Source: Flavobacterium psychrotolerans
Lineage (GTDB): Bacteria > Bacteroidota > Bacteroidia > Flavobacteriales > Flavobacteriaceae
Assembly: GCF_003097635.1 (NCBI RefSeq)
Contig: NZ_QCZI01000003.1
Coordinates: 1 to 64,000 of the forward strand
Direction of reading: 5' to 3'
DNA: 64,000 nucleotides
The notes beneath the pieces were generated by a model, which saw only the letters and a list, made by a program, of their open reading frames with translations, did no database searches and had not been told where the DNA came from. Numbering within the stretch: the first letter of the stretch is position 1; every line of letters starts with the position of its first letter. Made by a program: the position numbers and the translations under genes. Positions 8,911-61,796 of this stretch are shown here, piece after piece.

Positions 8911-9001
8911 TTTTTATCAATAAAGGGCAAAGATAGGGAAATGGATTTGTGATTTGCGGTTTGGGATTTAGTAAATCTAGGAATGCCCAGAAATAATCAC
9001 T

Positions 9002-38989: not shown

Positions 38990-41671
38990 TTAATCTGCGA
39001 TATTAGGATTCAACCATTTCATGGCTACTTCGGTTGGAATACTTCTTCGTTTGGCGTAATCAATGACTTGGTCTTCTTTTATTTTTCCGAGCCCAAAATA
39101 CTTGCTTTCCGGATTTCCAAAATAATATCCCGATACCGAAGAAGCCGGCCACATCGCCATACTTTCGGTCAAAGTTACCCCAATTTCTTGTTCTACATTT
39201 AATAATTTCCAAATTGTTGGTTTTTCTAAATGGTCTGGACAAGCCGGATAACCTGGAGCTGGACGAATTCCTTTGTACGTTTCTTCGATTAGAGCTTCAG
39301 TGCTTAAAACCTCATCGGCTGCATATCCCCAAATTTTCTTCCGGATTTTTTCGTGCAAATATTCTGCAAAAGCCTCCGCAAAACGATCCGCTAATGCTTT
39401 CACCATAATCGAATTATAATCGTCTAAGTCTTTTTCGAATTCAGCAGCCCATTCATCCACGCCAAAACCGGTGGTTACACAAAATGCTCCCATATAATCT
39501 GTTTTTCCACTGTCTTTTGGCGCAATAAAATCCGCTAAAGCGATGTTTGGCGCCCCTTTTGTTTTTTGCGATTGCTGACGCAAAGTTAAGAATTTCTCCA
39601 ACACTTTTCCGCTGGCATCACGCAATTCGATATCATCATCATTGATTTGATTGGCTGGAAAAATCCCGTAAATCCCTTTAGCGGTAAGTTTTTTTTCTTT
39701 CAAAATTATTTCCAACATTTCCTGCGCATCCGCAAAAACGGAAGTCGCTTGCTCGCCCACAACTGCATCGGTCAAAATTACTGGATATTTTCCGAACAAT
39801 TCCCACGTTCTGAAAAATGGTGTCCAATCGATATACGGAACCAAAACATCCAAATCTACTTCGATAGTCTGTTCTCCAATTACATTTGGTTTTACAGGAG
39901 TAAAATTCTCCCAATCCAATTGTAATTTATTTTTTCGAGCTTGCTCAATGGTCAAGAAATTTTTATCACGGGAGCGATTCAAAAACGTTTCACGGAATGC
40001 GTCATATTCCTCGCGAATCGTACTCGCGTATAATTTTTTATCACTGTTCAACAAACTTCCCGCGACCGTAACCGCCCTCGAAGCATCATTTACATGAATC
40101 ACAGTTTCTCTATATTGAGGCGCAATTTTCACGGCAGTATGGGCACGAGAAGTCGTTGCGCCACCAATCATCACAGGGATTTTCATTCCTCTTTTATCCA
40201 GTTCCTTGGCGAGATAAACCATTTCGTCCAGTGATGGCGTAATCAATCCGCTTAGCCCTATAATATCTACGTTGTGCTCAATGGCTGCGGCAATAATTTT
40301 TTCAGGAGGCACCATTACACCCAAATCTACAATCTCATAATTATTACACGCAAGTACCACGCTTACAATATTTTTACCAATATCGTGCACATCTCCTTTT
40401 ACGGTTGCCATCAAAATTTTTCCATTCCCTTGTTTGTCTCCAGCTTGTTTACTTGCTTCGATAAACGGTAATAAATAGGCCACCGCTTTTTTCATTACAC
40501 GAGCCGATTTTACCACCTGTGGCAAAAACATTTTACCCGAACCAAATAAATCTCCAACAACGTTCATCCCTGTCATCAGGTTAATTTCGATAACTTCGAT
40601 TGGTTTTGTAGCTGCTAATCGGGCTTCTTCGACATCAATTTCTATAAAGGCATCGACTCCTTTTACAAGTGAGTGCGTAATCCGTTCTTGAACTGTTCCC
40701 GAACGCCATTCTTGTACTGCTTTTTCGTTGCTCTTTACATCGCCTTTTACATTCTCGGCAAAATCCAACAGCCTTTCGGTGGCATCATCGCGTCTATTTA
40801 GAATTACATCTTCAACATGTTCTAATAAATCTTTAGGGATTTCGTCGTAAATCGAAAGCATTTCCGGATTCACAATTCCCATCGTCATTCCGTGTTGAAT
40901 GGCGTGGTACAAGAAAACCGAGTGCATCGCTTCACGAACGGTATCATTCCCTCTAAAAGAAAACGAAACGTTACTCACCCCACCGCTTATGTGTGCGTGT
41001 GGCAAATTTTCCCGAACCCATTTTGTCCCTCTAAAGAAATCCAAAGCGTTTAGGCGGTGTTCCTCCATTCCTGTGGCAACAGGAAATATATTCAAATCAA
41101 AAATAATATCCTGTGGCGCAAAACCAACTTTGTTGACCAAAATATCATACGAACGTTGGCAAATTTCTACTCTACGTTCGTAATTATCGGCCTGACCTAC
41201 CTCATCAAAAGCCATAACAATTACAGCTGCTCCATATCGTTTGATGAGTTTGGCATATTTAATAAAGTTTTCTTCGCCTTCTTTTAATGAAATGGAATTT
41301 ACGACACTCTTTCCCTGCACCACTTTCAATCCTGCCTCAATAATATCCCATTTTGAGCTGTCAATCATGATTGGAACTCTGGAAATATCGGGTTCGGCTG
41401 CAATCAAATTCAGGAATTTTGTCATGGCATATTCACCGTCCAACATTCCTTCATCCATATTAATATCGATGATTTGTGCGCCGCCTTCTACTTGCTCTTT
41501 GGCAATGCTTAATGCTTCTTCGTATTTTTCTTCCTTGATTAATCGAAGGAATTTTCTGGAACCCGTTACATTCGTTCGTTCCCCAATGTTTACAAATACG
41601 CTGTTTGGCGTAATGATTAAGGGTTCTAATCCCGATAATACAAGGTTTCTTCTCGTTTCTTCTTGTGACAT
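38990..41671 (-). CDS. metH: Methionine synthase, folate/cobalamin/reactivation part
   Basis: 893 residues. Domains in order: pterin-binding (about 10-290, [20 protein letters not shown]), cobalamin-binding with the cap region and [25 protein letters not shown] (about 420-560, His ligand in DxHxxG), and the C-terminal SAM-binding reactivation domain ([15 protein letters not shown] near 825). It lacks the homocysteine-binding domain, which is a separate gene at 43446-44447. The two must act together to form B12-dependent methionine synthase. Confidence 0.93.
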
Positions 41672-43445: not shown

Positions 43446-44447
43446 TTACATCGTTGCTGTTGACACACGTGGTTTATAATCCTTTGCAATATCAGCAATC
43501 AGCTTGATATGTCCTGGGGTTGTTCCGCAACAACCGCCTATGATATTAATTAAATTATCGTCTAAATATTCTTTGATGAATGCCTGCATTTGCTCTGGTG
43601 TTTCATCGTATTCCCCAAAGGCATTTGGTAATCCTGCATTAGGATGTGCCGAAACATTGAATGAAGTATTTTGTGATAAGGTTTGTAAATAAGGCTTCAA
43701 CAAATCCGCCCCCAAAGCACAATTGAATCCTACACTCAACAACGGAATGTGCGAAACGGAAACCAAAAACGCTTCCACGGTTTGTCCCGAAAGTGTTCTT
43801 CCTGAGGCATCGGTGATCGTTCCGGAAACCATGATTGGAATATCTATTTTGCGTTCGTCTTTGACTTCTTCGATGGCAAAAAGTGCCGCCTTTGCGTTTA
43901 GCGTATCAAAGATTGTTTCTACCAAAAGCAAATCTACACCACCATCTAGCAAGGCTTCGACCTGTTGTTTGTAGGCAATGCGTAAATCATCAAAAGTTAC
44001 GGCTCTGTAACCCGGATCATTTACATCTGGCGACATACTCGCCGTACGGTTTGTTGGGCCTATTGAACCCGCAACAAAACGAGGTTTGTCTGGATTTCGT
44101 GCGGTGAATTCATCGGCTACTTCACGGGCTATTTTAGCCGATTGGTAGTTCAATTCATAAACGATATCTTCGAGATGGTAATCCGCCATTCCTATGGTGG
44201 TACCCGAGAACGTATTGGTTTCTACAATATCGGCTCCCGCTTCAAAATACAAAGCATGAACTGCTTTTATCGCTTGTGGCTGGGTTATGGACAACAAATC
44301 ATTATTCCCTTTTAAGGAATGGGGGAAATCTTTGAAACGTTCCCCCCTGAAATCTTCTTCGGAAAAATTGTAACGCTGTAACATGGTTCCCATTGCTCCG
44401 TCGAGTACGAGAATTCGGTTTTTTATGGCTTCTTGAATTTTTGACAT
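43446..44447 (-). CDS. metH: Homocysteine S-methyltransferase (MetH N-terminal part)
   Basis: 333 residues. [14 protein letters not shown] at the start, the first zinc Cys in [13 protein letters not shown] and the Cys pair in [13 protein letters not shown] give the three zinc ligands that activate homocysteine. This is the first domain of MetH as a separate gene; the partner domains are at 38990-41671. Between the halves lie two unrelated genes and a foldback repeat, about 1.8 kb in total. Confidence 0.93.
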
Positions 44448-44531
44448 ATCTTATTTTTGCCGCTAAGACGCTAAGGCGCAAAGCTTTTGTTTATTTATTT
44501 GTTTTTTCCAAAAAAACACCATTCTTGGCTC

Positions 44532-44596
44532 TTTAGCCCTGATGGGAGCGGCATCCCACGCTTTTTTGCGTGGATATAGCGGACAGCAGGAACCCA
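44532..44596. repeat. Dispersed foldback repeat, copy 3 of 3
   Basis: Head TAGCCCTGATGGGAGCGGCA, inner hairpin CCACGC-TTTTTT-GCGTGG, tail ATATAGCGGACAGCAGGAA. Same family as 642-745 and 9002-9085. Confidence 0.82.
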
Positions 44597-44663
44597 AATT
44601 GGCTGAAAATACCTGATATTTCGCTCCTTATTATTTCACTATTTTGGAACTGCAAAGTAAAGC

Positions 44664-45879: not shown

Positions 45880-46461
45880 CTATTCTTTATTTTTTAACGC
45901 TTCGGTGATTTCGTTCATTTTTTGGACTTTTTCCTCAAAATTCCCTTTCAGCGTTTTGCGATATTCGTTCAGGTTTTCGACCATTTTATTGATATCCTCC
46001 GGAATAACTTCTTCAAAAAACTCCCGTAATCTTTTGGCTGTCGTAGGCGATTTGCCGTTTGTTGAAATGGCTATTTTGACGTTTCCTTTGGTTACAATTC
46101 CACCCAAATAATAATCACATAAATCAGGCGTATCTGCAATGTTACAAATCAGATATCTTTTTCGGGACAAATCGAACACTCGTTTATTGACTTTCAAATC
46201 ATCTGTACACGCTATCACCATGTGGCGTTTGCGAAGCATCTTTTTCTTGAACTTTTTTTGAATCAAGGTAACGGAAGGATGTTCTTGTACCAAAGTTTCT
46301 AATTCTGGTAAAAAATTTGGCGCCACCACCTCGACATTAGCATTTGGGCTCGATTTTAATAGGAAAGATAATTTTTCCAACGCCACATTTCCTCCACCTA
46401 CAATCAACACATTCAGGTTTTGTAGTTTTAGAAAAACTGGATATAATTCGTTACGTTCCAC
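45880..46461 (-). CDS. Precorrin-2 dehydrogenase / sirohydrochlorin ferrochelatase
   Basis: 193 residues, similar to the N-terminal part of CysG or Met8p. NVLIVGGGNVALEKLSFLL is the NAD motif, ACTDDLKVNKRVF and CNIADTPDLCDYYLGGIVTKGNVKIAISTNGKSPTTAKRLREF are the characteristic middle region with the catalytic Asp. It makes siroheme for the sulfite reductase. The start is a GTG that overlaps the TAG stop of the sulfite reductase gene by one base. No uroporphyrinogen-III methyltransferase gene is in the window. Confidence 0.9.
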   Translation of the reverse strand: MERNELYPVFLKLQNLNVLIVGGGNVALEKLSFLLKSSPNANVEVVAPNFLPELETLVQEHPSVTLIQKKFKKKMLRKRHMVIACTDDLKVNKRVFDLSRKRYLICNIADTPDLCDYYLGGIVTKGNVKIAISTNGKSPTTAKRLREFFEEVIPEDINKMVENLNEYRKTLKGNFEEKVQKMNEITEALKNKE

Positions 46462-48551
46462 TATACTTTTGCTAAATCTTTTGCTCTGTATTTTTCTATA
46501 TTTTGAAAGAAGGCGATTCCTTCTTGAATATATTTTTGTGCAAACGCTTCAGAAGGTTCATTCGCTTTGATTTGATATACTAAATCTTTGAACGTTGAAT
46601 CCAACTCGATTTTATCGCTTTCGATGAAAACGGTGTCAAACAAATCGATAATTCCTGCATGGTGATTTGTTTTTTGGTTTTCAGCAAGCAATAATGCTTT
46701 AGCACCGTTTACAAATCCGGCATACGTCAAATAAATAGCATCTGACCATTTTCCTTCTTCAAAAGCTTCTTGCGCAAAAGTCAATTTATCTTTAGCCTCA
46801 AATATCAAAGTGGCCACTAAATCAATAACTACTCCTGCACATTCTCCTACTCCAACTGCTTTTACGTAGTTATCGGCATTTCCCCAATCTACAAAATCAG
46901 CTTCGGTAAGATTAGTCAAATCAGCTAATGGTTTCAAAAATTCATAGAAATATTTCTCTCCTTTGGCATCGTAATAATCCAAGAATGATTGTCCTTTTCC
47001 ATTGGCATCAAAATCATTTAAGATATAACGCAATGCATCTGGTCCTCTTCTACTTGGAATTTTGATTACTTTGTCAGAAAAACGTCCTACTCCATTTCCT
47101 AAATTTCCTCCACCTAATAATACCTGAAGTGCTGGAGCAACTAGTTTTCCTGAATTGATAGACATTCCCTGGAAACCAATTTCGGACATATTGTGTTGTC
47201 CGCAGGCATTCATACAACCGCTAATTTTTATAGCGATTTCTTGATTGTTGCTGTATTGTGGGTATTCTGTTTTTAATACTCTTTCTAATTCATCTGCAAT
47301 ACCAGTACTACTTGCGATACCTAAATTACAGGTATCCGTTCCCGGACAAGCCGTGATATCTCCGATAGTATCATATCCTAAAGCAACAAAATCTAATTTG
47401 GCTAATTCTTGGTAAAAAAACGCTAGATTTTCTTCTTTAATATTACGTAAAACGATGTTTTGTCTTAATGAAAAACGCAATTCATTAGCGCCATAATTTT
47501 TAATCAAATCGGCTAATAATTTTGCTTTGTCTGTATAAAAATCTCCTAAAAGTACTTTAATGCCAATAGCTACATATCCTGCTTGTTTTTGTGCAATCAC
47601 ATTCGATTTTTTCCAAGCTTCAAAAGCATCTACATCGTCAATTGTTACTGATGGCACAGCTAACAAAGGTTCAGCAATTGGTCCTTCAAAAGCGGTAGTA
47701 TCTATTTCGTATGTATGAAACGGCAAAGCTTTTTTCTCTTCGTCAACCAAACGCAAAAACTCGTCACGCCCTAGGTCTTTGATTAAAAACTTCATACGTG
47801 CTTTCAAACGTTTTGCTCTTTCTCCGTGACGGTCAAAAACTCTAATTATACCTTCGGCAGTTGGGATAATTTGGTTAACCGGTACAAATTCTGAAAGCAA
47901 TTCAGCGTGACTTGGTTGAGAGCCTAAACCACCAGCAAACATTATTTTGAAACCTTTTTCGCCATTTACAATTTTTGGAATAAATCCTAAATCGTGTAAA
48001 TAACTCAACGCAGTATCTTTATCAGAAGAGGAGAATGAAATTTTGAACTTACGTCCCATTTCCTGACAAATTGGGTTACGCAATAAATATTCAAATAAAC
48101 CGTGTGCATAAGGCGATACATCAAAAGGCTCATCAACATCTACACCAGCTAATTCACTTCCTGTGATATTACGCACTGTGTTTCCACAGGCTTCTCTCAA
48201 AGTGATATCATCTTTGGCCAACTCAGACCAAAGCTCAGGAGTTCTATCTAAACTCACATAGTGAATTTGAATATCCTGACGGGTAGTAATGTGTAAACGT
48301 CCCGTAGAATATTTATCAGATACTTCAGTAATTCTCTTTAATTGCTCGCTAGTCACTTTTCCGTATGGTAATTTAATACGAATCATTTGCACGCCTTCTT
48401 GACGCTGACCGTAAATACCACGTGCCAAACGAAGACTACGAAAACGCTCATCGTCAATTTGTCCACTTCGGAAAGAATGAATTTTTTTCTCTAAATCGAT
48501 AATCTCTTTTTGAACAATCGGGTCTTCTATTTCGGTTCTAAAACTTTGCAT
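46461..48551 (-). CDS. Siroheme sulfite reductase with C-terminal HEPN domain
   Basis: 696 residues. Residues about 1-550 form a ferredoxin-type sulfite/nitrite reductase; Cys402, Cys408, Cys446 and Cys450 (ACPGTDTC and ISGCMNAC) bind the 4Fe-4S/siroheme centre. The last 120 residues (EAKDKLTFAQEAFEEGKWSDAIYLTYAGF, NHHAGIIDLFD) are a HEPN-type helical domain. It reduces sulfite to sulfide. Sulfite is favoured over nitrite because the neighbours are cysN, cysD and cysH. Confidence 0.92.
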   Translation of the reverse strand: MQSFRTEIEDPIVQKEIIDLEKKIHSFRSGQIDDERFRSLRLARGIYGQRQEGVQMIRIKLPYGKVTSEQLKRITEVSDKYSTGRLHITTRQDIQIHYVSLDRTPELWSELAKDDITLREACGNTVRNITGSELAGVDVDEPFDVSPYAHGLFEYLLRNPICQEMGRKFKISFSSSDKDTALSYLHDLGFIPKIVNGEKGFKIMFAGGLGSQPSHAELLSEFVPVNQIIPTAEGIIRVFDRHGERAKRLKARMKFLIKDLGRDEFLRLVDEEKKALPFHTYEIDTTAFEGPIAEPLLAVPSVTIDDVDAFEAWKKSNVIAQKQAGYVAIGIKVLLGDFYTDKAKLLADLIKNYGANELRFSLRQNIVLRNIKEENLAFFYQELAKLDFVALGYDTIGDITACPGTDTCNLGIASSTGIADELERVLKTEYPQYSNNQEIAIKISGCMNACGQHNMSEIGFQGMSINSGKLVAPALQVLLGGGNLGNGVGRFSDKVIKIPSRRGPDALRYILNDFDANGKGQSFLDYYDAKGEKYFYEFLKPLADLTNLTEADFVDWGNADNYVKAVGVGECAGVVIDLVATLIFEAKDKLTFAQEAFEEGKWSDAIYLTYAGFVNGAKALLLAENQKTNHHAGIIDLFDTVFIESDKIELDSTFKDLVYQIKANEPSEAFAQKYIQEGIAFFQNIEKYRAKDLAKV

Positions 48552-48639: not shown

Positions 48640-49884
48640 TTATTTTATAAAACCAACTCCTGCTGTTGTGTTGGTTGCAGCATCTATTAAGATGAAAGCT
48701 CCGTTGGATTTATTATCCGTGTAAGCATCAAAATAAATGGCTTTGCTCAATTTAATAGTTACTTCTCCAATTTCATTTATAGCTAATTGAGTCGCTGACG
48801 TTGTTCCTGAATAATCGGTTGCGATTACGTTTTTTACACTGTCAATTTTGGCCAAAACTCTATTGGTGTTGTGCTGTACAAAATATTTTGCACCTGCCAC
48901 TAATTTTTTACTGTCCATCCAACAAACGGTTGTCGTAATGTCTTTTTCAATTTTAGGAAGCTCGCTAGATTTTACAATCATATCGCCTCTTGTCACATTA
49001 ATATCATTTTCTAATTCAATCGTGATTGAGGAACCTGCCGTAGCTTCGTCAAATTGCTTATCAAAAAAGTGAATATTAGTCACTTTCGATTCTGTCAAGG
49101 AAGGAAGTACGGTTACAGCATCTCCCACTTTGATATTGTTTCCATATAATTTTCCGGCATATCCTCTAAAATCGTGATACTCCTCGGTTTTTGGTCGGAT
49201 TACAGTTTGAACCGGGAAACGAGCTTGCCCATTATCGTAAACATCTTTTGATTCCAACCCTTCCAAATGTTGCAGGATAGTTTGCCCAGTATACCAAGGC
49301 ATTTTTCCTAATGTTTCCACCACATTATCTCCTGTTAAAGCACTCAACGGAATATAACTTACGTTTTGTTCTTTGTAGGCACTTTTTGCATTCAATGCTT
49401 GAAAATCAGCTTTGATTTTGTTGTACACTTCTTCCGAATAGTTCACTAAATCCATTTTGTTTACCGCAACAATCACATCTTTTACTCTCAATAAATTATT
49501 GATAAAAAAGTGACGGTACGTTTGCTCAATAACTCCTTTACGGGCATCAATCAAAATGATGGATACTTGTGAAGTCGAAGCTCCGGTAACCATGTTACGC
49601 GTATATTCTACGTGACCCGGAGTATCGGCAATAATGTAACTTTTCTTTGCAGTCGAAAAATAAATATGAGCCACATCAATCGTTATTCCTTGTTCTCTCT
49701 CGGCAACCAAACCATCAGTAGCCAAAGAAAAATCTAAATAATCGTATCCTTTTTGCTTGCTGCTTTTTTCTATTGCTTCTAATTTATCGGTAGTCAACGA
49801 TTGTGTATCGTACAATAATCTTCCGATTAAAGTACTTTTTCCGTCATCTACACTTCCTGCTGTCGCTATTTTTAAAACTTCCAT
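48640..49884 (-). CDS. cysN: Sulfate adenylyltransferase, GTPase subunit 1
   Basis: 414 residues. G1 GSVDDGKSTLIGRLL, effector EREQGITIDVAH, G3 DTPGHVEY and G4 NKMDL are present, followed by EF-Tu-like domains II and III. GTP hydrolysis drives formation of APS by CysD. No APS kinase domain (CysC) is fused. It is separated from cysD by a DUF2490 gene. Confidence 0.94.
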   Translation of the reverse strand: MEVLKIATAGSVDDGKSTLIGRLLYDTQSLTTDKLEAIEKSSKQKGYDYLDFSLATDGLVAEREQGITIDVAHIYFSTAKKSYIIADTPGHVEYTRNMVTGASTSQVSIILIDARKGVIEQTYRHFFINNLLRVKDVIVAVNKMDLVNYSEEVYNKIKADFQALNAKSAYKEQNVSYIPLSALTGDNVVETLGKMPWYTGQTILQHLEGLESKDVYDNGQARFPVQTVIRPKTEEYHDFRGYAGKLYGNNIKVGDAVTVLPSLTESKVTNIHFFDKQFDEATAGSSITIELENDINVTRGDMIVKSSELPKIEKDITTTVCWMDSKKLVAGAKYFVQHNTNRVLAKIDSVKNVIATDYSGTTSATQLAINEIGEVTIKLSKAIYFDAYTDNKSNGAFILIDAATNTTAGVGFIK

Positions 49885-50711: not shown

Positions 50712-51611
50712 CTAAAAATACCCTTGTTGTTTTCTTTTTTCCATAGCAGCCTCAGAACGTTTGTCATCGATTCTGGCTCCCCTTTCAGAAATGGTAGAAG
50801 AACGAATTTCCCCAACTACTTCCGCAATTGTTGCCGCATACGAATCTACCGCAGCTGTACAGCTCATATCTCCAACTGTTCTAAAACGAACAATTCTTTC
50901 TTCAATTTCTTCGTCTTCTTCTTGGTAAACAAAAGGAGAATGTGACCAAATCATTCCGTCTCTTATGAATACTTTACGTTTGTGCGAAAAGTAAATGGAG
51001 GGAATTTCGATTTGCTCTTGTTCAATATAACTCCAAACATCTAATTCTGTCCAGTTCGAAATTGGAAAAACACGTACGTTTTGACCATTTTCAATTTTTC
51101 CATTCAAAAGATCAAACAACTCAGGACGTTGGTTTTTTTCATCCCATTGACCAAAATCATCACGAACAGAGAAAATACGTTCTTTTGCTCTTGCTTTTTC
51201 CTCGTCTCTGCGAGCACCCCCAATACAAGCATCAAATTTAAATTCTTCGATAGCATCCAAAAGTGTTGTTGTTTGTAAACTGTTTCTACTTGAATATTTA
51301 CCCGTTTCTTCTACTACTTTACCTTCGTCAATAGCATCTTGTACATTACGAACAATTAATTCCAATCCTAATTCAGCCACCAATCTATCTCTAAATTCAA
51401 TAGTTTCAGGAAAGTTATGTCCTGTATCTACATGCAACAATGGAAAAGGAATTTTGGCAGGGAAAAATGCTTTCTGTGCTAATCTAACCAATGTGATTGA
51501 ATCTTTACCGCCTGAAAAAAGCAAAACGGGTTTATCAAATTGAGAAATTACTTCCCTGAATATGTAAATTGCTTCGCTTTCTAAAGCATTTGTTTTTAAT
51601 ATTGTGCTCAT
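50712..51611 (-). CDS. cysD: Sulfate adenylyltransferase subunit 2
   Basis: 299 residues. PP-loop LLFSGGKDSITLVRLAQKAF, HVDTGHNFPETIEFRD, RRDEEKARAKERIFSVRD and WTELDVWSYI are CysD motifs. It joins sulfate and ATP to APS with CysN. Confidence 0.95.
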   Translation of the reverse strand: MSTILKTNALESEAIYIFREVISQFDKPVLLFSGGKDSITLVRLAQKAFFPAKIPFPLLHVDTGHNFPETIEFRDRLVAELGLELIVRNVQDAIDEGKVVEETGKYSSRNSLQTTTLLDAIEEFKFDACIGGARRDEEKARAKERIFSVRDDFGQWDEKNQRPELFDLLNGKIENGQNVRVFPISNWTELDVWSYIEQEQIEIPSIYFSHKRKVFIRDGMIWSHSPFVYQEEDEEIEERIVRFRTVGDMSCTAAVDSYAATIAEVVGEIRSSTISERGARIDDKRSEAAMEKRKQQGYF

Positions 51612-51704: not shown

Positions 51705-52430
51705 CTACTTAGTTCCCCCTTCGGGGGCTAGGGGGCTGTGCAAACCACATTCTTTATGACTGGATTCCCAAGACCATCTTCCCGCTCTGATGTCTTCGCC
51801 TTCGGCTATAGCTCTTGTACAAGGAGCGCAACCAATGCTTACAAACCCTTTTTTGTGTAAAGCGTTTTGTGGAACATTATTATCATCAATATATTTTTGT
51901 ACTTCGGTCAAAGTCCATTTCAATAATGGATTAAATTTGATAATATTAAAATGAGCATCATATTCAAAAACAGCCAAATCATTTCTGTTTTCTGATTGTT
52001 CTGCACGTAAACCGGTAATCCAAATTTCATTTCCTTTTAATGCTTTAGTCAAAGGCGCTACTTTTCGAATAAAACAACATTCTTTTCTATTCTCAACTGA
52101 TTCGTAGAAACTGTTTGGGCCTTTTTTATTTAATAACTCTTCCACAGACCTAGCTTCCGGAAAATAGGTTTTAATGTCTATTTTATATTTTTTCAATGTC
52201 TTATGAAAAACATCATACGTTTCTTGAAATAATCTTCCAGTATCCAAAGTAAAAATGGTAATTGGCAAATCATTTTTGGCAATTAAAGCCGTAATCACCT
52301 GATCTTCCTGTCCAAAAGAAGTCGAAAAAACCACTTTATCCTTGTATTCATTAGCTAAAAAAGCCAAAGTCTCTTCAATCGAAAAGGTAGCTGTTTTTTC
52401 TAATAAAGTATTTACTATTTCTGCGCTCAT
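51705..52430 (-). CDS. cysH: Assimilatory APS/PAPS reductase, Fe-S type
   Basis: 241 residues. PP-loop-like FSTSFGQEDQVI, Cys118-Cys119 (ECCFIRK) and Cys201-x-x-Cys204 (CAPC) form the 4Fe-4S ligand set of APS-using reductases; Cys228 in KECGLH is the catalytic Cys. The Fe-S ligands and the absence of a cysC gene suggest that it reduces APS directly. The final residues after ECGLH (SPLAPEGGTK) are encoded by a CCCCCTAG/CCCCCGAAGGGGG repeat and look recruited. The start overlaps the TauE stop by one base. Confidence 0.92.
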   Translation of the reverse strand: MSAEIVNTLLEKTATFSIEETLAFLANEYKDKVVFSTSFGQEDQVITALIAKNDLPITIFTLDTGRLFQETYDVFHKTLKKYKIDIKTYFPEARSVEELLNKKGPNSFYESVENRKECCFIRKVAPLTKALKGNEIWITGLRAEQSENRNDLAVFEYDAHFNIIKFNPLLKWTLTEVQKYIDDNNVPQNALHKKGFVSIGCAPCTRAIAEGEDIRAGRWSWESSHKECGLHSPLAPEGGTK

Positions 52431-54030: not shown

Positions 54031-55203
54031 TTAAGAAAGTGCCTGCTCCAAATCTGCAATTAAATCTTTCACGGTTTCCAAACCTACAGAAACTCGCACC
54101 AACCCTTCAGTGATTCCAACAGATAATTTTTCTTCAACAGACAATTTACTGTGTGTTGTTGATGCTGGATGCGTAACAATAGTTCTGGTATCACCAATGT
54201 TTGCCGATAGCGTACAGAGTTTTATTCTATTCAAAAATTGTCGTCCTGCTTCGATTCCGCCTTTGATTTCAAATGCAATAATGTTGCCTCCCAAAAGCAT
54301 TTGTTTTTTAGCAATTTCATACTTCGGATGCGATTTTAAAAACGGATATTTCACGCTGTTAACATTCGGATGATTTTCTAAAAATTCGGCAACTTTTAAG
54401 GCATTTTCGCAGTGTCTTTCGACACGAACGGCTAATGTTTCTAAACTTTTAGACAATACCCAAGCATTAAAAGGTGACAATGCCGGTCCTGTATTTCTGG
54501 AGAACAAGTAAATTTGACGAATCAAATCTTCGCTTCCTACGGTAACTCCGCCTAAAACTCGTCCTTGTCCGTCAATTAATTTTGTAGCAGAATGGATAAC
54601 CAAATGCGCTCCCCATTTTATAGGTTGTTGAATATATGGTGTTGCAAAACAGTTGTCGATTATTAAAATCAAATTGTGCTTTTTGGCAATAGCACCAAGC
54701 AATTCCAAATCAATCACATCAACACCAGGATTCGTTGGAGATTCCGCATAGAGAATTTTAGTATTAGGCTTGATAAAACTCTCGATGGTTTCTGGTTTAT
54801 TGATGTCAAAATACGAAGTTTCAATCTTCCATTTTGGGAAATACGTCATAAACAAGGCATGAGTCGAACCAAATACACTTCCCGCAGAAACAATATGATC
54901 CCCTGAACTCAACAAAGCAGCAAAAGTAGAATAGATTGCCGCCATTCCCGTTGCAAAAGCATAACCAGCTTCTGCTCCTTCCATTATGCAGATTTTATCA
55001 ACAAATTCTGTCGTATTAGGGTTGCTGAAACGACTGTAAATATTGCGTTCTTTTTCTTCCGTAAAAGAAGCACGCATATCTTCGGCATCTTCAAATACAA
55101 AACTGGAGGATAAATATAAAGGCACAGAATGCTCTTGATATTGCGATCTTTCTAATTGGGTGCGTATGGCTTGGGTTTCAAAACCAAATTCTTGTTCGTT
55201 CAT
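54031..55203 (-). CDS. metZ: Cys/Met-metabolism PLP enzyme, probably O-succinyl/acetylhomoserine sulfhydrylase
   Basis: 390 residues. SSFVFEDAEDMRASF, YSRFSNPNTTEF, VIHSATKLIDGQGRVLGG (PLP lysine) and HPASTTHSKLS define the trans-sulfuration family; the sequence is closest in form to MetZ. It would make homocysteine from an activated homoserine and sulfide. The MetX domain upstream and the second sulfhydrylase at 59825-61105 share the pathway, so the two may differ in substrate. Cystathionine gamma-synthase is an alternative. Confidence 0.87.
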   Translation of the reverse strand: MNEQEFGFETQAIRTQLERSQYQEHSVPLYLSSSFVFEDAEDMRASFTEEKERNIYSRFSNPNTTEFVDKICIMEGAEAGYAFATGMAAIYSTFAALLSSGDHIVSAGSVFGSTHALFMTYFPKWKIETSYFDINKPETIESFIKPNTKILYAESPTNPGVDVIDLELLGAIAKKHNLILIIDNCFATPYIQQPIKWGAHLVIHSATKLIDGQGRVLGGVTVGSEDLIRQIYLFSRNTGPALSPFNAWVLSKSLETLAVRVERHCENALKVAEFLENHPNVNSVKYPFLKSHPKYEIAKKQMLLGGNIIAFEIKGGIEAGRQFLNRIKLCTLSANIGDTRTIVTHPASTTHSKLSVEEKLSVGITEGLVRVSVGLETVKDLIADLEQALS

Positions 55204-55790: not shown

Positions 55791-58700
55791 TTACCCTTTC
55801 TCCGACAATCTTAAAATATCTCCAAAAACGCCTCTTGCCGTAACGGCTGATCCCGCTCCTGCTCCTTGAATAACTATGGGTCTGTCTCCATAGGATTCTG
55901 TATAAATCTCAAAGAAAGAGTCCGAACCTTTTAATCCTCCCAAAGCCGTATCTTGAGGTACAGAAACCAATTTTACATCCAAAACTCCCTTTTCCCGTTG
56001 CAAATCTCCTGATAATTCTCCAATATAGCGCAAAACGTGGTTTGGTTTTTGATTTTCTTTTATGGTAGCGTATATCGAATCTAACTCGGTTAATTGGTTT
56101 AAAAATTCGATTTTATCACCTTCTCTTAAATGCTCTGGGATCAAGTTTTGGATATTAATTTCTTCGAATTCGTTTTGCAAATCCAGTTCCCTGGCTAAAA
56201 TCAATAGTTTTCTACCCACATCATTTCCACATAAATCCTCACGCGGATCGGGCTCAGTAAAACCTTTATCAATTGCTTCTTGCAATACTTCACTAAAAGG
56301 ACGGTCTTCCGCAGAAAAAATATTGAACAAATAACTTAAAGTTCCTGAAAAAACGCCTTTGATTTTAGTGATGTTTTCTCCAGAATGATGTAGTAATTTG
56401 ATGGTGTCAATAAGCGGTAATCCTGCACCAACGTTGGTTTCATACAAATAATTTTTTTGATTGTCTGTCAACACTTCCCTTAACTTTTTATAAAACGTAT
56501 AACTTAACGTGTTCGCTACTTTATTAGAAGAAATCAAGTCAAAACTATTTTCGATCAATGCAATATAATTTTCAACAAACGATGCGCTTGCTGTATTATC
56601 AATAGCAATGAGGTTTTCCAAATGATGCTCAACTGCGTAAGCAATAACATCGTCTATGGTATATAAAACGCCATTATTTACAACCTCATTTTTCCAATTT
56701 GGAGTTACACCATTTTTGTCTAACAGCACTTTTTTAGAATTGGCAATAGCAAAAATATTTAGTTTAATGTCTTTGCGTTTTTCAATATTTTCAGCCGAAG
56801 CCAATATTTGATTAATCAACGTTCCTCCAACCAAACCATGCCCAAAAATGGCAATATTTATTTTTTTGGAGACCCCAAAAATTTCACCATGAATCACATT
56901 CAACGCTTTGTGAAGTTGTGATTTGTTGACCACCAAACTCACGTTTTTACCCGTTACCGTATTATTGAATAAAATGGGCACAATTTTATTTTTTATCAAT
57001 GCCGTGTAAGGCTTATGAAAAGTACTCAAATCTTGTCCAATGATGGAAATAACGGAAACATTATCGGTCACCGATATTTTATTGACGTCTTTAGAATAAA
57101 AATCATTTTCGAATTCTTTCTCCAATTCAATCATGGCCTTCGTCGCCTTATCGGCAGCAACAACCAATCCAATTCCCCGTTCTGATGAACCTTGTGAAAT
57201 GATACTTACACTAATATCATTATCGCCCATCACTCTAAAAATTCGGGCATCAACTCCCGTTTTTCCTAACAAACCTCTACCTTCAAGATTCACTAACGCT
57301 ACATTTTCAAGAACAGAAAGGGTTTTAATTCCTTCCTTATTTGATTTTGAAGTAATTAACGTCCCTTGATTCTCATAATTAAACGTGTTTAAAATGCGTA
57401 ACGGGATGTTTTTTTCCAATAGAGGAACGATCGTTTTAGCATGAAGAATTGTTGCCCCAAAATTGGCCAATTCATTGGCTTCGTTAAATGACAAATAATC
57501 AATTTTTTTTGCATCAGGAACCAACTCCGGATTGGCAGTATAGATTCCGTCAACGTGCGTGTAATTTTGAAGCTCTTCCGCATCGATGTAATTGGCAATC
57601 AAAGAAGCAGTATAATTGCTACCGTTTCTACCTAAAGTGGTGGTTTCATTATTGTTATTGGATCCTATAAAACCGGTGATTACGTTTACACTATCGTTAT
57701 TCTTTTTAAAGTATTGAATTATATTTTTCTTTGAAACTTGTTCCAAGGGTTGTGCATCGCCAAATTTCGAATCGGTTTTTATCAATTCACGAGAATCTGC
57801 AAATTGAGCCTTTATTCCTTTTTTGTTTAAAAGGGAAGTGATTGTTTTGGCCGAAATCACCTCCCCTTGAGACAGCACTTGATCTTTTATTTTTTCGCTA
57901 TAATCGCCAATCAAACTTACACCTTCAAAAAGTTTGTCTAAAGTTGCAAATTCTTCTGACAAATCAACATCCGTAAAATCGTTTAGCTGGTAGCTTTTGA
58001 AGCTTTCCAACAGCGGCTTGTAATTTCCGTTTTTTACAGCAATTGTCAAAATATCCCCTAATTCATCTGTTGCATTTCCTCTTGCCGAAACAACTATAGC
58101 GATGTTTTCGCCTTTGCTTTTTTTATCGGTAATAATATCCAATACTTTATTTATCCCTTCTCCGTTGGCTAATGATTTCCCGCCAAATTTTAATATTTTC
58201 ATTTTATCTTTTTTATTTTTAAAAACAACATCCAGTAAATTGCTTAATTGATCGTATTCCATTAAAAATGCATCGTGACCGTGTTGCGAATCAATTTCGC
58301 TATAAAACACATTGTTTTTAAATTTTTTTATTTCTTGGTATGTTTCCCGATTTTCATTTGCTGTAAAAAACAAGTCTGAATTGATTCCAATAATATAGAT
58401 ATTAGCATCCATTTCAGAAATTATTTTTTCAAAAGAAGTTCTGTTTCTGGTAATATCGATGGTTTTCAGCAACTGATTCATCATTTTATATGCCGAAAGT
58501 TGAAAACGCTTTTGCAATTTCTCTCCGTGATGATTCAACCAACTTTCTACTTGAAATGATTCTAAAGAATCAGTTGAAGTTCGTTGAAATTTTTCTTTGA
58601 AAGATTCTGGGGTACGATAACACATCATTGCGTGAATACGAGCATCTTCAATAGGGTGTGAAGAATTATTCAGTATTTTTTCTTGCAAATAACAATTGGC

Positions 58701-59186
58701 GATCAACCAATCGGTCGATTTCCAATCAGAAGCGATGGGAATCAAATTACGAGTTAATTTGGGCTCTAGAGCTACCATTTCCCAAGCAACCCCTCCACCA
58801 ACAGAACCTCCAATAATGGCAAATAATTGTTTAATTTTAAGGTATTTAATCCCTTCAATGAAAAGTCTGGCAATGTCTCTGGTGTTAAAGTCTAAATAAT
58901 TCTCTATAATAAAATTATCGTAACCATTTCCCGGAACATTGAAAGCTAGTATTGTATAAATATTGGTATCTATTGTTTTGTTTTTACCAATTAAATCGTT
59001 CCACCAACCGTTTGTCCCAATAACTTGGGAATTTCCAGTCAGTGCGTGATTAACCAAAACAATAGGGCCGGTATTGAGGGCTGAACCAAAAACTTGGAAA
59101 CTCAAATTTAGGGTTGCGTAAAATGCACCACTTTCGGTAGTAAAATTTTGTATGGTAATAGATGTTGGTTTATTTTCCAATTTCAA
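55791..59186 (-). CDS. Trifunctional fusion: MetX-like acyltransferase, aspartokinase, homoserine dehydrogenase
   Basis: 1131 residues. Residues 1-325 are a MetX-type alpha/beta hydrolase with Ser128 (GGSVGGG), Asp271 and His304 (HGHDAFL) as the expected triad; it would acetylate homoserine. Residues 329-750 are an aspartokinase (ILKFGGKSLANG, TTLGRNGSNYTA, two ACT repeats near VALVNLEGRGLLGKTG). Residues about 770-1131 are a homoserine dehydrogenase (NIAIFGHGLVGGTLINQIL, GFTEPDPREDLCGNDVGRK). One protein therefore covers the first, third and fourth steps from aspartate to acetylhomoserine. Met329 could be an internal start. A SAM-I riboswitch lies upstream. Confidence 0.92.
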   Translation of the reverse strand: MKLENKPTSITIQNFTTESGAFYATLNLSFQVFGSALNTGPIVLVNHALTGNSQVIGTNGWWNDLIGKNKTIDTNIYTILAFNVPGNGYDNFIIENYLDFNTRDIARLFIEGIKYLKIKQLFAIIGGSVGGGVAWEMVALEPKLTRNLIPIASDWKSTDWLIANCYLQEKILNNSSHPIEDARIHAMMCYRTPESFKEKFQRTSTDSLESFQVESWLNHHGEKLQKRFQLSAYKMMNQLLKTIDITRNRTSFEKIISEMDANIYIIGINSDLFFTANENRETYQEIKKFKNNVFYSEIDSQHGHDAFLMEYDQLSNLLDVVFKNKKDKMKILKFGGKSLANGEGINKVLDIITDKKSKGENIAIVVSARGNATDELGDILTIAVKNGNYKPLLESFKSYQLNDFTDVDLSEEFATLDKLFEGVSLIGDYSEKIKDQVLSQGEVISAKTITSLLNKKGIKAQFADSRELIKTDSKFGDAQPLEQVSKKNIIQYFKKNNDSVNVITGFIGSNNNNETTTLGRNGSNYTASLIANYIDAEELQNYTHVDGIYTANPELVPDAKKIDYLSFNEANELANFGATILHAKTIVPLLEKNIPLRILNTFNYENQGTLITSKSNKEGIKTLSVLENVALVNLEGRGLLGKTGVDARIFRVMGDNDISVSIISQGSSERGIGLVVAADKATKAMIELEKEFENDFYSKDVNKISVTDNVSVISIIGQDLSTFHKPYTALIKNKIVPILFNNTVTGKNVSLVVNKSQLHKALNVIHGEIFGVSKKINIAIFGHGLVGGTLINQILASAENIEKRKDIKLNIFAIANSKKVLLDKNGVTPNWKNEVVNNGVLYTIDDVIAYAVEHHLENLIAIDNTASASFVENYIALIENSFDLISSNKVANTLSYTFYKKLREVLTDNQKNYLYETNVGAGLPLIDTIKLLHHSGENITKIKGVFSGTLSYLFNIFSAEDRPFSEVLQEAIDKGFTEPDPREDLCGNDVGRKLLILARELDLQNEFEEINIQNLIPEHLREGDKIEFLNQLTELDSIYATIKENQKPNHVLRYIGELSGDLQREKGVLDVKLVSVPQDTALGGLKGSDSFFEIYTESYGDRPIVIQGAGAGSAVTARGVFGDILRLSEKG

Positions 59187-59262
59187 ATCTTTTTTGATTT
59201 TTTGATTTGCGTCTGGAAATATTAAAAAGAAAAAGTTAGGGAAAACTAGAAGGATTCTTATG

Positions 59263-59366
59263 GTTATCTTTCCACGTTGGTCGTGGTAGAATGCAGCACC
59301 TTCTTCGATTTACCGAAGGGTTGCTAAGGCTTCATCGGGTCTAATCCCTCGTCCTTTCTTTATAAC
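59263..59366 (-). promoter_or_regulatory. SAM-I (S-box) riboswitch
   Basis: On the minus strand the S-box core CCCGATGAAGCCTTAGCAACC is followed by a CTTCGGTAAATCGAAG hairpin, then GGTGCTGCATTCTACC. The P1 helix is GTTAT (59366-59362) with ATAAC (59267-59263). The aptamer ends 77 bases before the MetX-fusion start. No clear terminator hairpin is visible between them, so control may act on translation. A TAATTTG box with a TTG (59396-59422, 17-base spacer) lies just upstream. Confidence 0.93.
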
Positions 59367-59466
59367 ATTTCAATACGTGTCTGAACTTAAAGGCACAAAT
59401 TAACTACTAATTTCTTAAACAACCAAATTTTGCATTGATTGGTTTTTGATTTTAAATCAAAATAAA

Positions 59467-59538: not shown

Positions 59539-59748
59539 TTAAATGAAAAGAAATTCATTTTCTTCAGAATACATGTGAAACAACAAAGAATTTGATGCAG
59601 GATTAGGAACTGAAGGTTGATGTAAATTGATTCCAAATCTGGTATGTGTTATTTCATAGTTGTCCTGATTTGGAACATTCCCATTTGTTCTTCTATTCAA
59701 ACTTTTAAGAAACTGAATTATTTTTGATATGTATTTTAGTATTTTCAT
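59539..59748 (-). CDS. Possible small protein
   Basis: 69 residues, basic helix at the N-terminus (MKILKYISKIIQFLKSLNRR) and a polar, Asn/Pro-rich remainder. No family recognised. The terminator-like hairpin 36 bases after its stop and its position between two transcription units support a real gene, but it could be non-coding. Confidence 0.4.
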   Translation of the reverse strand: MKILKYISKIIQFLKSLNRRTNGNVPNQDNYEITHTRFGINLHQPSVPNPASNSLLFHMYSEENEFLFI

Positions 59749-59824: not shown

Positions 59825-61105
59825 TTATACTTTTAAATTTTCGAAAACGGACTGCAAATCGGCTTTCAAATCTTCGATGTCTTCTAATCCGACTGACAGT
59901 CTGATTAAATCTTTGGTTACTCCTGTAGCGACCTGTTCCGCATCTGACAACTGCTGGTGCGTGGTACTCGCCGGATGAATAATCAATGATTTTGTATCGC
60001 CGATATTGGCTAAAAGCGAAAATAATTTCGTTTCATCAGCTACTTTTTTTGCGGCTTCAAAACCTCCTTTTAGACCGAAAGTTAGCAACCCGTTTTGTCC
60101 TTTTGGCAAATATTGCTGACCCAAATCATAATACTTACTAGACTTTAATCCGGGATAATTTACCCAAGCTACTTGATCCTGACTTTCTAACCATTGAGCC
60201 AAAGCCAATCCGTTTTCGCTATGTTTCTGGATACGAATCGGTAAGGTTTCGAGTCCCTGAATAATTTGAAAAGCATTAAACGGGCTCAAAGCCGCTCCAA
60301 AATCCCGTAAACCTTCGATACGAACTTTGGCTATAAAGGCGGCGTTTCCTAGCGCATCGTGATAAACCAATCCGTGATATGCTGCTGATGGTTCCGTAAA
60401 TTCAGGAAATCTTCCGCTACTCCAATCGAATGTTCCAGCATCAATAATGGCTCCGCCAAGTGAAGTTCCGTTTCCTGCAATGTATTTGGTCAGGGAATGA
60501 ATCACAATATTTGCTCCATGTTCAATTGGATTAAGCAAATAAGGCGACGGAACGGTATTATCAACAATAAATGGAACTTTAAATGCTTTGGCTTCCGCCG
60601 AAATGGCTTTCAAATCCAACACATCTAATTTTGGGTTTCCTAAACTTTCTATAAAAAACACTTTGGTATTTTCTTGGGCCGCTTTGGTAAAATTGGCTGC
60701 ATCCGATGGATCCACAAACGTGGTGGTAATTCCTAACCTTGGCAAAGTAACACTCAACAAATTATACGTTCCACCATACAAACTATTGGAAGCCACAATG
60801 TGATCGCCCGTCTTGAGCAACACCAACAGTGAAGTGGCGATGGCTGCAGTTCCCGAGGCTGTAACTACAGCTGCTATTCCACCTTCGAGAGCCGCCAATC
60901 GTTGTTCCAGAATATCATTTGTTGGATTATTTAATCTTGTATATATAAATCCCGCTTCGGCAAGGCCAAATAAATTAGCCGCATGATTCGAATTATTGAA
61001 CACATAAGAACTGGTTTGATAAATGGGTACTGCTCTGGTTCCCGCCGTTTTAGTAACATCATGTCCTGCGTGTAATGCGTTTGTTGCAAATTTTTGAGTG
61101 CTCAT
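59825..61105 (-). CDS. O-acetylhomoserine aminocarboxypropyltransferase (sulfhydrylase)
   Basis: 426 residues. ALHAGHDVTKTAGTRAVPIYQTSSYVF at the start, YTRLNNPTNDILEQR, VIHSLTKYIAGNGTSLGG with the PLP lysine, and HPASTTHQQLSDAEQ are typical of O-acetylhomoserine/O-acetylserine sulfhydrylases (MetY/Cys). It incorporates sulfide into O-acetylhomoserine, made by the MetX domain of the neighbouring fusion. It is expressed from its own transcript with two leader-peptide attenuators upstream. Confidence 0.92.
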   Translation of the reverse strand: MSTQKFATNALHAGHDVTKTAGTRAVPIYQTSSYVFNNSNHAANLFGLAEAGFIYTRLNNPTNDILEQRLAALEGGIAAVVTASGTAAIATSLLVLLKTGDHIVASNSLYGGTYNLLSVTLPRLGITTTFVDPSDAANFTKAAQENTKVFFIESLGNPKLDVLDLKAISAEAKAFKVPFIVDNTVPSPYLLNPIEHGANIVIHSLTKYIAGNGTSLGGAIIDAGTFDWSSGRFPEFTEPSAAYHGLVYHDALGNAAFIAKVRIEGLRDFGAALSPFNAFQIIQGLETLPIRIQKHSENGLALAQWLESQDQVAWVNYPGLKSSKYYDLGQQYLPKGQNGLLTFGLKGGFEAAKKVADETKLFSLLANIGDTKSLIIHPASTTHQQLSDAEQVATGVTKDLIRLSVGLEDIEDLKADLQSVFENLKV

Positions 61106-61213
61106 AATTTTAATTTTTAGATTTGATTTTAGATTTTAAAACTGAATTCGTTTCAGCTTCATTTTAATTTGATTTTAGATTTTGAAATATCCCGACATTC
61201 GATTTACAAAAAC

Positions 61214-61251
61214 AAAAAACCCTTTTAGAAGCGTATCCAAAAGGGTTTTTT
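61214..61251 (-). terminator. Proximal attenuator of the sulfhydrylase gene
   Basis: Terminator stem AAAAAACCCTTTT (61214-61226) / AAAAGGGTTTTTT (61239-61251) with a 12-base loop. On the minus strand TCCGAAAG just after the leader stop (61279-61272) can pair with CTTTTGGA (61243-61236), which contains part of the 5' arm, with one G-U pair; this would block the terminator. Confidence 0.82.
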
Positions 61252-61280
61252 AAGTTGTTTTATAACTTATACTTTCGGAA

Positions 61281-61370
61281 TCAACAGACACAAACGCACA
61301 TCATGGCTTTTGCACAAATCATCGATTTGACATTGCATGTGTTCATTTGTTTTTGTTTTAAGTTATTCAT
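61281..61370 (-). CDS. Cys/Met-rich leader peptide
   Basis: A 29-codon frame. Its second half contains 6 Met or Cys codons within the last 7 to 13 positions: the end reads MICAKAMMCVCVC and there is one more Cys before it. Six Cys and five Met in 29 codons is far from random. It stops two bases before the antiterminator strand. A shorter version starts at Met9 (61346). It is placed to sense charged tRNA-Cys or tRNA-Met and to control the sulfhydrylase gene. Confidence 0.82.
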   Translation of the reverse strand: MNNLKQKQMNTCNVKSMICAKAMMCVCVC

Positions 61371-61406
61371 AGTTTATATTATTTTGTAATTGATATAATT
61401 CAAAAA

Positions 61407-61435
61407 AAAAGCCTCCCGTTTTGTGGGAGGCTTTT
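61407..61435 (-). terminator. Distal attenuator/terminator between the two leader peptides
   Basis: Strong stem AAAAGCCTCCC (61407-61417) / GGGAGGCTTTT (61425-61435), loop GTTTTGT, then nine U on the minus strand. The TGTGGG word in the upstream leader frame can pair with CCCACA that covers part of the 5' arm and loop. Confidence 0.85.
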
Positions 61436-61458
61436 GCTATATCATTTTGATTTAAAAT

Positions 61459-61527
61459 TTAAGCAATAAACGACCCACAGGATTTTTCCTGCATGGCTTT
61501 AGAAATATTGCAAACATTTAATTTCAT
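61459..61527 (-). CDS. Second leader peptide (distal) with Cys codons
   Basis: A 22-codon frame beginning MKLNVCNISKAM and ending SCGSFIA, with two Cys and two Met. It lies directly before the GCCTCCC terminator. The Cys-Gly codons (TGT GGG) make the strand that competes with that terminator. It is less extreme in composition than the proximal leader and could be a conserved small peptide instead of a sensor. Confidence 0.6.
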   Translation of the reverse strand: MKLNVCNISKAMQEKSCGSFIA

Positions 61528-61684
61528 TTTTTTCTGTTTCTTGGTACAAATTTGCAAACTATTATTTAGATAACCAAATAGTTTTAAAAAAAATTAACAG
61601 CGATGTAACAGTTATCTGAAAATAAGTAATTTATTAATGCCACCACTACTTTAATTTTTAACACCAAAAAAAGTAAAGAAAAAT

Positions 61685-61713: not shown

Positions 61714-61724
61714 CAAACTATTTT

Positions 61725-61773
61725 AGAGGAAAATTTGAACTGATTGCAACCTCGTTAAAAAATGCTAAAGCAG
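61725..61773 (+). promoter_or_regulatory. SAM-II-like pseudoknot riboswitch
   Basis: P1 is GAGG (61726-61729) with CCTC (61750-61753). The loop contains AATTTGAACTGATTGCAA, and the 3' tail is TTAAAAAATGCTAAAGCAG. CTG (61740-61742) pairs with CAG (61771-61773), and ATTGC (61743-61747) pairs with GC-AA in GCTAAAG, giving the H-type pseudoknot. This matches the SAM-II metX aptamer layout (ATTTAA..TATTGCA..GCTAAA). SAM-V is a related alternative. Confidence 0.75.
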
Positions 61774-61796
61774 AAAATCTCTCCTTTAGCTTTTTT
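61764..61796 (+). terminator. Terminator overlapping the riboswitch 3' strand
   Basis: GCTAAAG (61764-61770) / CTTTAGC (61784-61790) followed by six T. The 5' arm is the same bases that form the pseudoknot tail of the SAM-II-like element. metK starts 48 bases later. Confidence 0.75.

Follow-up and report, generated by a model that had tools for sequence, protein, structure and literature searches.

Ribosome-mediated attenuation of transcription is a known kind of control, with trp attenuation as its example, and Rfam holds a Trp leader for the phylum considered here. Attenuators in tandem were described for the Salmonella mgtCBR leader, which was called a singular example and in which ATP and proline are the signals (PMC3641672). 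As presented there, two short frames lie in one leader mRNA with an attenuator each, and the stem-loops are unlike intrinsic terminators. The same report treats the tandem riboswitches of Bacillus clausii metE, where two expected intrinsic terminators stand in series before a methionine gene; in that account the signals (SAM and B12) are bound directly by the RNA and leader peptides are not involved (PMC3641672). Short upstream frames that contain Cys codons were reported ahead of Cys genes in Rhodobacterales (uORFC-8-2 before cysS; PMC8632094) and among actinobacterial cys leaders (PMC1262725), all single units as described and all from other phyla, the mycobacterial ones being, in the account given, devoid of conserved terminator hairpins (PMC1262725). 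In F. psychrophilum 'strong clues' were put forward that operons for amino acid biosynthesis are attenuated by leader peptides, and the word methionine is absent from the main text of that report, a statement that does not extend to its Table S7 listing (PMC9723704). Among the top-ranked results of searches in the open-access literature, a coverage that leaves most subscription papers outside, Cys/Met tandem leaders were not found described for this group.

The locus described here belongs to Flavobacterium psychrotolerans and lies on the first 64,000 nucleotides of contig NZ_QCZI01000003.1 (the window), where two leader frames and two terminators follow each other on the minus strand between metK and metY. 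We consider it very probable that transcription into metY is controlled by two successive ribosome-mediated attenuators, each of which reads the supply of both Cys and Met. This reading starts from what is visible in the sequence: the leaders and terminators, the alternative pairings, the way these are conserved and co-vary, and the set of genes behind them. From these we infer that a single transcript is made, that the leaders are translated, that ribosomes stall and transcription terminates, and that the output is multiplicative.

With known attenuators the locus has in common leaders rich in codons for the pathway products (according to frame counts of distal and proximal leaders), an intrinsic terminator with a mutually exclusive antiterminator in both units, and a downstream gene that makes the sensed amino acid (metY and the other Cys/Met genes). 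The short leader, the regulatory codons before hairpin 1, the antiterminator 2:3 and the terminator 3:4 are shared with trp-type attenuation, from which the locus departs by its Cys and Met codons, by two units in series and by a proximal unit without region 1. At 28.1 bits the distal unit falls short of the gathering score (49) of the Rfam family Bacteroid-trp (RF01692) and does not belong to it, whereas a leader with three Trp codons before trpE of the same genome, taken as a control, is one (69.5 bits against 49). Like mgtCBR, the locus has two short frames, each with a predicted attenuator, in what would be one leader mRNA; unlike mgtCBR, it has intrinsic terminators in both units, which have Cys and Met codons in common and are found before several operons. 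The kind of control is known, while its arrangement and regulon seem new, and the interest would lie in a series of two different switch architectures that is repeated over several sulfur operons of one genus.

The metY locus and its two leader units

The controlled gene and its surroundings in the window comprise the following features.

59825..61105, minus strand: metY, O-acetylhomoserine sulfhydrylase, the controlled gene (NCBIfam TIGR01326, 629.4 bits against a cut-off of 495.1)
at 61845, plus strand: metK, divergent from metY
61720-61778, plus strand: SAM-II riboswitch before the divergent metK (Rfam)
59261-59368, minus strand: SAM-I riboswitch before metX-thrA (Rfam)
55791..59186, minus strand: metX-thrA fusion, the next large gene, one frame of 1131 aa (NCBIfam)
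54031-55203, minus strand: further homoserine-sulfhydrylase-type gene, best NCBIfam matches slightly under the cut-offs
51705-52430, minus strand: cysH
50712-51611, minus strand: cysD
48640-49884, minus strand: cysN
46461-48551, minus strand: sulfite/nitrite-reductase-like gene, below cut-off
43446-44447 and 38990-41671, minus strand: metH, split into two frames
648-729, 8998-9082 and 44531-44597, plus strand: three Flavo-1 RNAs (Rfam)

The MetX-like part of the metX-thrA fusion scores below its NCBIfam cut-off and the aspartokinase/homoserine dehydrogenase part above. A stretch of 2.5 kb of the window holds three kinds of RNA control for Met/Cys metabolism, i.e., the attenuators, SAM-I and SAM-II. 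Small frames of about 50-70 codons with a C-terminal motif like SLLF-x-MY-xx-EE/ENE-x-LF were also seen, in the window (59539-59748, minus strand) and at L003 3495, L015 1720 and L062 3806; the pattern was matched in 35 of the 80 metY loci introduced below (30 upstream and 7 downstream of metY), several of the frames lie directly 3' of attenuators, and two that were checked against Pfam gave no match.

The two units, in the direction of transcription, consist of these elements.

61547..61554, minus strand: promoter -7-like box CAAATTTG, with 5 of the 6 fixed positions of TAnnTTTG
61459..61527, minus strand: distal leader peptide MKLNVCNISKAMQEKSCGSFIA, 22 codons, ATG at 61527, stop ending at 61459
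61477..61492, minus strand: distal region 1:2 hairpin GCAGG/CCTGT, competitor of the antiterminator (pairing counts, own-versus-swapped test)
61474..61479, minus strand: distal antiterminator 5' strand TGTGGG, region 2 (own-versus-swapped test, folding)
61422..61427, minus strand: distal antiterminator 3' strand CCCACA, region 3, overlapping the terminator 5' arm (folding, own-versus-swapped test)
61407..61435, minus strand: distal intrinsic terminator (3:4), 11 pairs, 6 of them G-C, with a T tract
61281..61370, minus strand: proximal leader peptide MNNLKQKQMNTCNVKSMICAKAMMCVCVC, 29 codons, ATG at 61370 (in-frame ATG at 61346), stop ending at 61281
61272..61279, minus strand: proximal antiterminator 5' strand TCCGAAAG, region 2, immediately past the leader stop (pairing in 39 sequences)
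61236..61243, minus strand: proximal antiterminator 3' strand CTTTTGGA, region 3, overlapping the terminator 5' arm and loop (pairing, folding)
61213..61252, minus strand: proximal intrinsic terminator, 17 pairs, 4 of them G-C

The initial annotation, made from the letters of the window, had reported two leaders and two terminators before the sulfhydrylase gene, and both pairs are present where it stated, on the minus strand. Its count of 11 Cys or Met codons among the 29 of the proximal leader has to be lowered to 10 with the start codon (5 Cys, 5 Met) and 9 without it, a richness equalled in 2 of 5000 dinucleotide shuffles. The matching proximal antiterminator that it proposed was recovered, TCCGAAAG (61279-61272) pairing with CTTTTGGA (61243-61236), in a unit that has no visible region 1. 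The distal leader has 3 Cys/Met codons, which 406 of 5000 shuffles equalled, so that in the window alone it is not beyond chance and becomes convincing only through its conservation in relatives. Between 60600 and 64000 there are 7 terminator-like sites against a shuffle mean of 2.6. The GCCTCCC hairpin had also been considered as the possible end of an unrelated transcript; since metK is divergent, on the plus strand, no minus-strand gene is seen upstream that the distal terminator could end, and this candidate was rejected.

Conservation, reading frame and alternative pairings

For comparison the best 80 of 535 metY loci found were used, with up to 2 kb upstream inspected; the closest named relatives among them are a Flavobacterium MAG and F. 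soyangense, whose metY is 96% identical in each case. Units were counted with a covariance model of each, at no less than 48 bits for distal rows (6 weaker rows omitted) and no less than 41.5 bits for proximal rows (omitting L016 1855, which overlaps a distal match, and the window itself). Conservation in relatives, which the initial annotation had named as a check, was borne out, one or both units standing before metY in 80 of 80 loci, a match that arises by construction because both models derive from these same loci. Both units were found in 38, the distal only in 13, the proximal only in 29 and neither in 0, so one of the two is missing from the examined stretch in 42 of 80. Two genomes of the genus, G018 and G128, have the distal unit roughly 3 kb farther upstream, before a 948-codon TonB-receptor gene that separates it from the proximal unit.

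After near-identical sequences were dropped from 49 distal and 68 proximal ones, 39 of each were left for alignment. In the 39 distal leaders all 71 of 71 gaps located 5' of region 1 are 3 nt long, and the distance from the AUG to region 1 keeps a single phase in 39/39. Cys and Met make up 143 of 397 distal codons in frame, compared with 41 and 16 in the other two frames; for the proximal leaders the figures are 364 of 1080 against 103 and 38, with an upward bias, as frames were chosen for Cys/Met. Relative to region 2, the stop of the proximal leader lies within -5 to +16 nt in every one of the 39 sequences.

The sigma-A consensus TAnnTTTG, from which the expected position of the box was also taken, was described for F. 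psychrophilum (PMC9723704). All 38 tandem sequences have a box with at most one mismatch 26-39 nt 5' of the distal AUG, a range that was set after the positions had been viewed. Its density is 0.083 before the distal AUG, 0.023 between the units and 0.006 between the proximal unit and metY, which makes a ratio of 3.6 to the inter-unit spacer and of about 14 to the spacer before metY, and exact boxes are found in 7/38, 0/38 and 1/38 sequences, respectively. In the window neither spacer contains a TAnnTTTG-like box with at most one mismatch, and its two complete units have no promoter-like box between them; a single transcript would be expected to start at about 61542.

The terminators are nearly fully paired in the alignments (265 of 273 cells in the distal, with both-side changes at 4 of 7 pairs; 348 of 351 in the proximal). 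Hairpin 1:2 of the distal unit is paired in 139 of 195 cells, with both-side changes at 3 of 5 pairs. Taken together, the distal structures have 86.3% of cells paired against 76.6% in 500 shuffles, and 51 cells with both-side changes against 20.2, values reached by 0/500 in each case, and their covariation score lies above all 500; the number of pairs with both-side changes does not exceed the shuffles (attained by 136 of 500), and for further pair types the value is lower. For the proximal antiterminator, 290 of 309 cells are paired, and both the paired cells and the covariation score exceed 500 of 500 shuffles; both-side changes occur at 1 of 8 pairs, which is not above the shuffles (471 of 500 reach it). 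Sliding of the partner strand cuts proximal pairing from 94% to 24-65%.

The match between strands of the same sequence was compared with that between swapped strands by duplex energy. Own pairs are stronger in distal 2:3 (-9.67 vs -7.66 kcal/mol), distal 1:2 (-6.77 vs -4.93) and proximal 2:3 (-8.73 vs -7.64), and 0 of 5000 permutations reach the own value in any of the three, with the differences lying largely between clades and relatedness not removed. There are two sequence classes, CCTGTGGG/CCTCCCACA-like and CCGCAGAG/CCTCTGC-like, which are offset in register by two bases. In the large distal class own equals swapped for 2:3 (-10.26 and -10.21), and in the small one the values are -8.18 and -6.85; for the proximal classes they are -8.77 vs -8.04 and -8.53 vs -8.53. 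An inner distal antiterminator helix (61466-61462 with 61438-61434) is weakly supported, its own value being reached by 76 of 5000 permutations.

In folds lacking the terminator 3' arm the antiterminator forms in 39/39 distal and 39/39 proximal sequences. Occlusion by the ribosome was modelled under equilibrium folding with an assumed footprint of 15 nt up and 12 nt down of the A site. In this model the mean probability of the distal antiterminator is 0.75-0.85 with the A site at least 9 nt before region 2 and 0.20-0.34 further on, 0.31 with the ribosome at the stop codon and 0.54 without a ribosome, a state not clearly 'off'; distal Cys/Met codons occupy favourable sites, with a mean antitermination of 0.80 vs 0.51 for other codons. 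The proximal antiterminator reaches 0.91-0.98 with the codon at least 15 nt before region 2, 0.36-0.48 beyond, 0.91 without a ribosome and 0.40 at the stop, and its Cys/Met codons are not better placed than others (0.85 vs 0.83). Judged by these modelled values, the distal unit would resemble the trp attenuator with its competing hairpin 1:2, and the proximal one should terminate only after its leader is completed. For the distal unit of the window, a stall at Cys6 or Met12 gives a modelled antitermination of 0.66-0.67, the same as without a ribosome (0.66), and it is therefore predicted to be switched off mainly by the ribosome running on. The initial annotation had the distal Cys-Gly codons pairing with the terminator 5' arm. 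The pairing of TGTGGG (61479-61474) with CCCACA (61427-61422) stands; a role of these codons, which lie within the antiterminator strand, as sensors is unsupported: a modelled stall at Cys17-Gly18 leaves the antiterminator at 0.02-0.06 (0.02 for Cys17), and the codon overlapping Cys17 encodes Cys in 7 of 39 sequences.

Proposed mechanism and competing readings

Conservation, reading-frame constraint and co-varying pairing strongly support the proposal, already made in the initial annotation, that two tandem attenuators precede metY. One transcript from about 61542 would meet both of them ahead of the gene. The distal unit would act as a trp-like three-hairpin attenuator, in which a ribosome held at the Cys/Met codons 5' of region 1 masks region 1, so that 2:3 pair and read-through follows, and a ribosome reaching the end of the leader masks region 2, so that the terminator forms. 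The proximal unit would be a simpler, two-state attenuator: a ribosome held at upstream Cys/Met codons would leave region 2 free and transcription would continue, and because region 2 sits at the stop codon, a ribosome finishing the leader would mask it and transcription would end. As metY needs read-through at both, its output would be the product of two responses to the supply of Cys-tRNA and Met-tRNA, with a low leak when sulfur amino acids are plentiful and a steep rise when either is scarce.

Among the competing readings, the one that keeps some weight, although we regard it as unlikely, is that this strain has one working unit, with the other (most likely the distal) being either a degenerating copy or no more than a terminator. 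The distal leader has only 3 regulatory codons, one of them inside the masked zone, and many relatives retain one unit near metY; against this, frame, hairpins and box are intact in the window and in L001-L003. It is quite improbable that in this operon the two attenuators are specialised, one for Cys and the other for Met, with metY integrating two signals. Such a division, raised in the initial annotation, would agree with the Cys-only or Cys-heavy second leaders before cysHDN (L218 with 3 Cys and 0 Met, L228 with 5 and 2, L177 with 9 and 2) and with leaders that are almost Met-only, found ahead of metH (L221), of one metY (L278) and of a cystathionine-lyase-like gene (L220). However, in 39 of 45 two-leader stretches, as in the window, the first as well as the second leader contains Cys and Met codons, and the Cys shares of the first and second leader rise together in these stretches (Spearman 0.58); one leader per amino acid was not seen.

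A reading in which the frames code for small proteins with a function, and the hairpins simply end transcripts, is very improbable. Cys-rich peptides could bind metal, for example, but the C-terminal parts of the distal leaders vary among relatives, partly by a changed frame, while the RNA pairing is retained, neither window peptide has an NCBIfam match, and no upstream gene is seen for the hairpins to end. Direct binding of a metabolite by the leader RNA, as in a SAM riboswitch, can be set aside almost entirely as the means of control: SAM-I and SAM-II riboswitches do lie nearby, but no Rfam family reaches its gathering score in 61100-61620, and an aptamer would not be expected to conserve a reading frame.

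If the serial attenuation of metY is true, two leader-peptide attenuators with intrinsic terminators ahead of a biosynthetic operon would show how translation-sensed control can be sharpened without a protein regulator. It would also need tight coupling of transcription and translation in a phylum described as devoid of Shine-Dalgarno sequences (PMC6847099). Natural variants exist with the distal unit only, the proximal only or both, and with Met-heavy or Cys-heavy leaders, so that gate logic and codon specificity are directly testable in a genus that has genetic tools.

Sulfur operons beyond metY and spread of the units

Units, often paired, also stand before metX-thrA, hom-metH, metH, cysHDN and cysE-cysK, and the double control, as far as it can be read from these loci, extends beyond metY. 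In the roughly 2 kb examined 3' of metY, a second distal and proximal pair was found in 34 of the 80 loci and a second proximal unit in 19; at L154-L158 the second pair precedes metX-thrA, from which a small frame and a SAM-I riboswitch separate it. Across the genus the distal model has a match (E <= 1e-4) in 85 of 121 genomes, 123 matches in total.

A set of 80 stretches, 76 placed on distal-model (R1) matches and four others, was analysed for the genes behind the units. Genes were assigned by tblastn against references, of which metY, cysH, cysD, cysK, cysN, the C part of metH and nirB are at or near their NCBIfam cut-offs, and cysE, cysJ, cysI and the lyase-like one are below the best-fitting cut-off or above that of a related model only. 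The first recognised gene was metY in 36 stretches, metX in 15, a TonB receptor, hom and cysH in 7 each, cysE in 2, and metH, nirB and a cystathionine-lyase-like gene in 1 each, with none in 3. At least two leader-terminator units are present in 23/36 stretches for metY, 8/15 for metX, 5/7 for hom, 6/7 for cysH, 1/1 for metH and 2/3 of those with no recognised gene, and in 0/2 for cysE, 0/7 for the TonB receptor, 0/1 for nirB and 0/1 for the lyase-like gene. The distal unit before a TonB-dependent receptor gene was observed in part of the genus (L169 2754-5792, L170 and the TonB receptor group counted above), and the receptor may be an importer of a sulfur compound. The gene for the large subunit of nitrite reductase, nirB (NCBIfam above cut-off), follows a distal unit at L217 (233-3173).

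The ratio of Cys to Met codons appears to lean with the pathway. Only leaders with at least 3 Cys+Met codons were kept in the list, and the comparison therefore tests the Cys:Met ratio and not Cys/Met richness. The mean Cys share of Cys+Met is 0.56 before cysH/cysE (9 stretches) vs 0.41 before Met genes (58), with a one-sided Mann-Whitney p = 0.008 uncorrected for relatedness. Within single genomes the Cys-pathway leaders are the richer in Cys share in 8 of 8 that have both kinds (G179, G185, G207, G223, G234, G242, G064 and G048), the difference being only 0.44 vs 0.42 in G048, and G064 and G207 not being independent because their cysE leaders are identical. In the leaders of metH (L221) and of the lyase-like gene (L220) nearly all Cys+Met codons are Met. 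The hom group runs counter to the trend: its Cys share is 0.58, and its leaders have many codons for aromatic residues and for His. Besides Cys and Met, the hom-metH leaders L259, L260, L276, L282, L284, L285 and L213 have many codons for Trp, Tyr, His or Phe.

Leader control of cysH is a minority trait, since in a survey of cysH loci drawn regardless of leaders (loci from 30 of 42 matched genomes, 10 of the 30 in the genus) Cys/Met leaders were near cysH in 1 of 10 genus loci (L179, G048 only). None were seen near the window's own cysH, and cysH loci of other families showed only distant, chance-like frames.

It is about evenly balanced whether much of the sulfur amino acid metabolism is under serial leader-peptide control genus-wide, in which case the pair of a trp-like and a two-state unit would have been copied before metY, metX-thrA, hom-metH and metH, whereas cysHDN would have received different second units. 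Codon content would then be matched to each pathway, SAM riboswitches would have been added downstream, and the result would be multiplicative, translation-sensed control with no dedicated repressor.

Outside the genus, among nine genomes with metY homologues, no Cys/Met leader with a terminator was seen in the 1500 bases upstream. When 148 genomes of the order were drawn, both models matched 11 genus members among the matches listed (95 and 115 further, non-matching genomes stand outside the two lists). Among those listed, R1 matched outside the genus in G025 (E 2.1e-4), a member of another family of the order with a good-looking tandem of two Cys/Met leaders before cysHDN (L177), and in G046 (E 0.003), where no leader was seen at the match. 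The proximal model (R2) gave 22 matches outside the genus among those listed (E 1.9e-4 to 0.01), which we take to be mostly chance; of the three whose surroundings were inspected (G144, G031 and G025), those of G144 and G031 had no sulfur gene recognisable by eye. A class-level search yielded 5 weak matches outside the order, and of four inspected two are leader-like but not Cys/Met-rich: near 1498-1620 of L209 and L212, short frames containing Lys, Phe and His are followed by a terminator and then a gene, and these frames look like another kind of leader.
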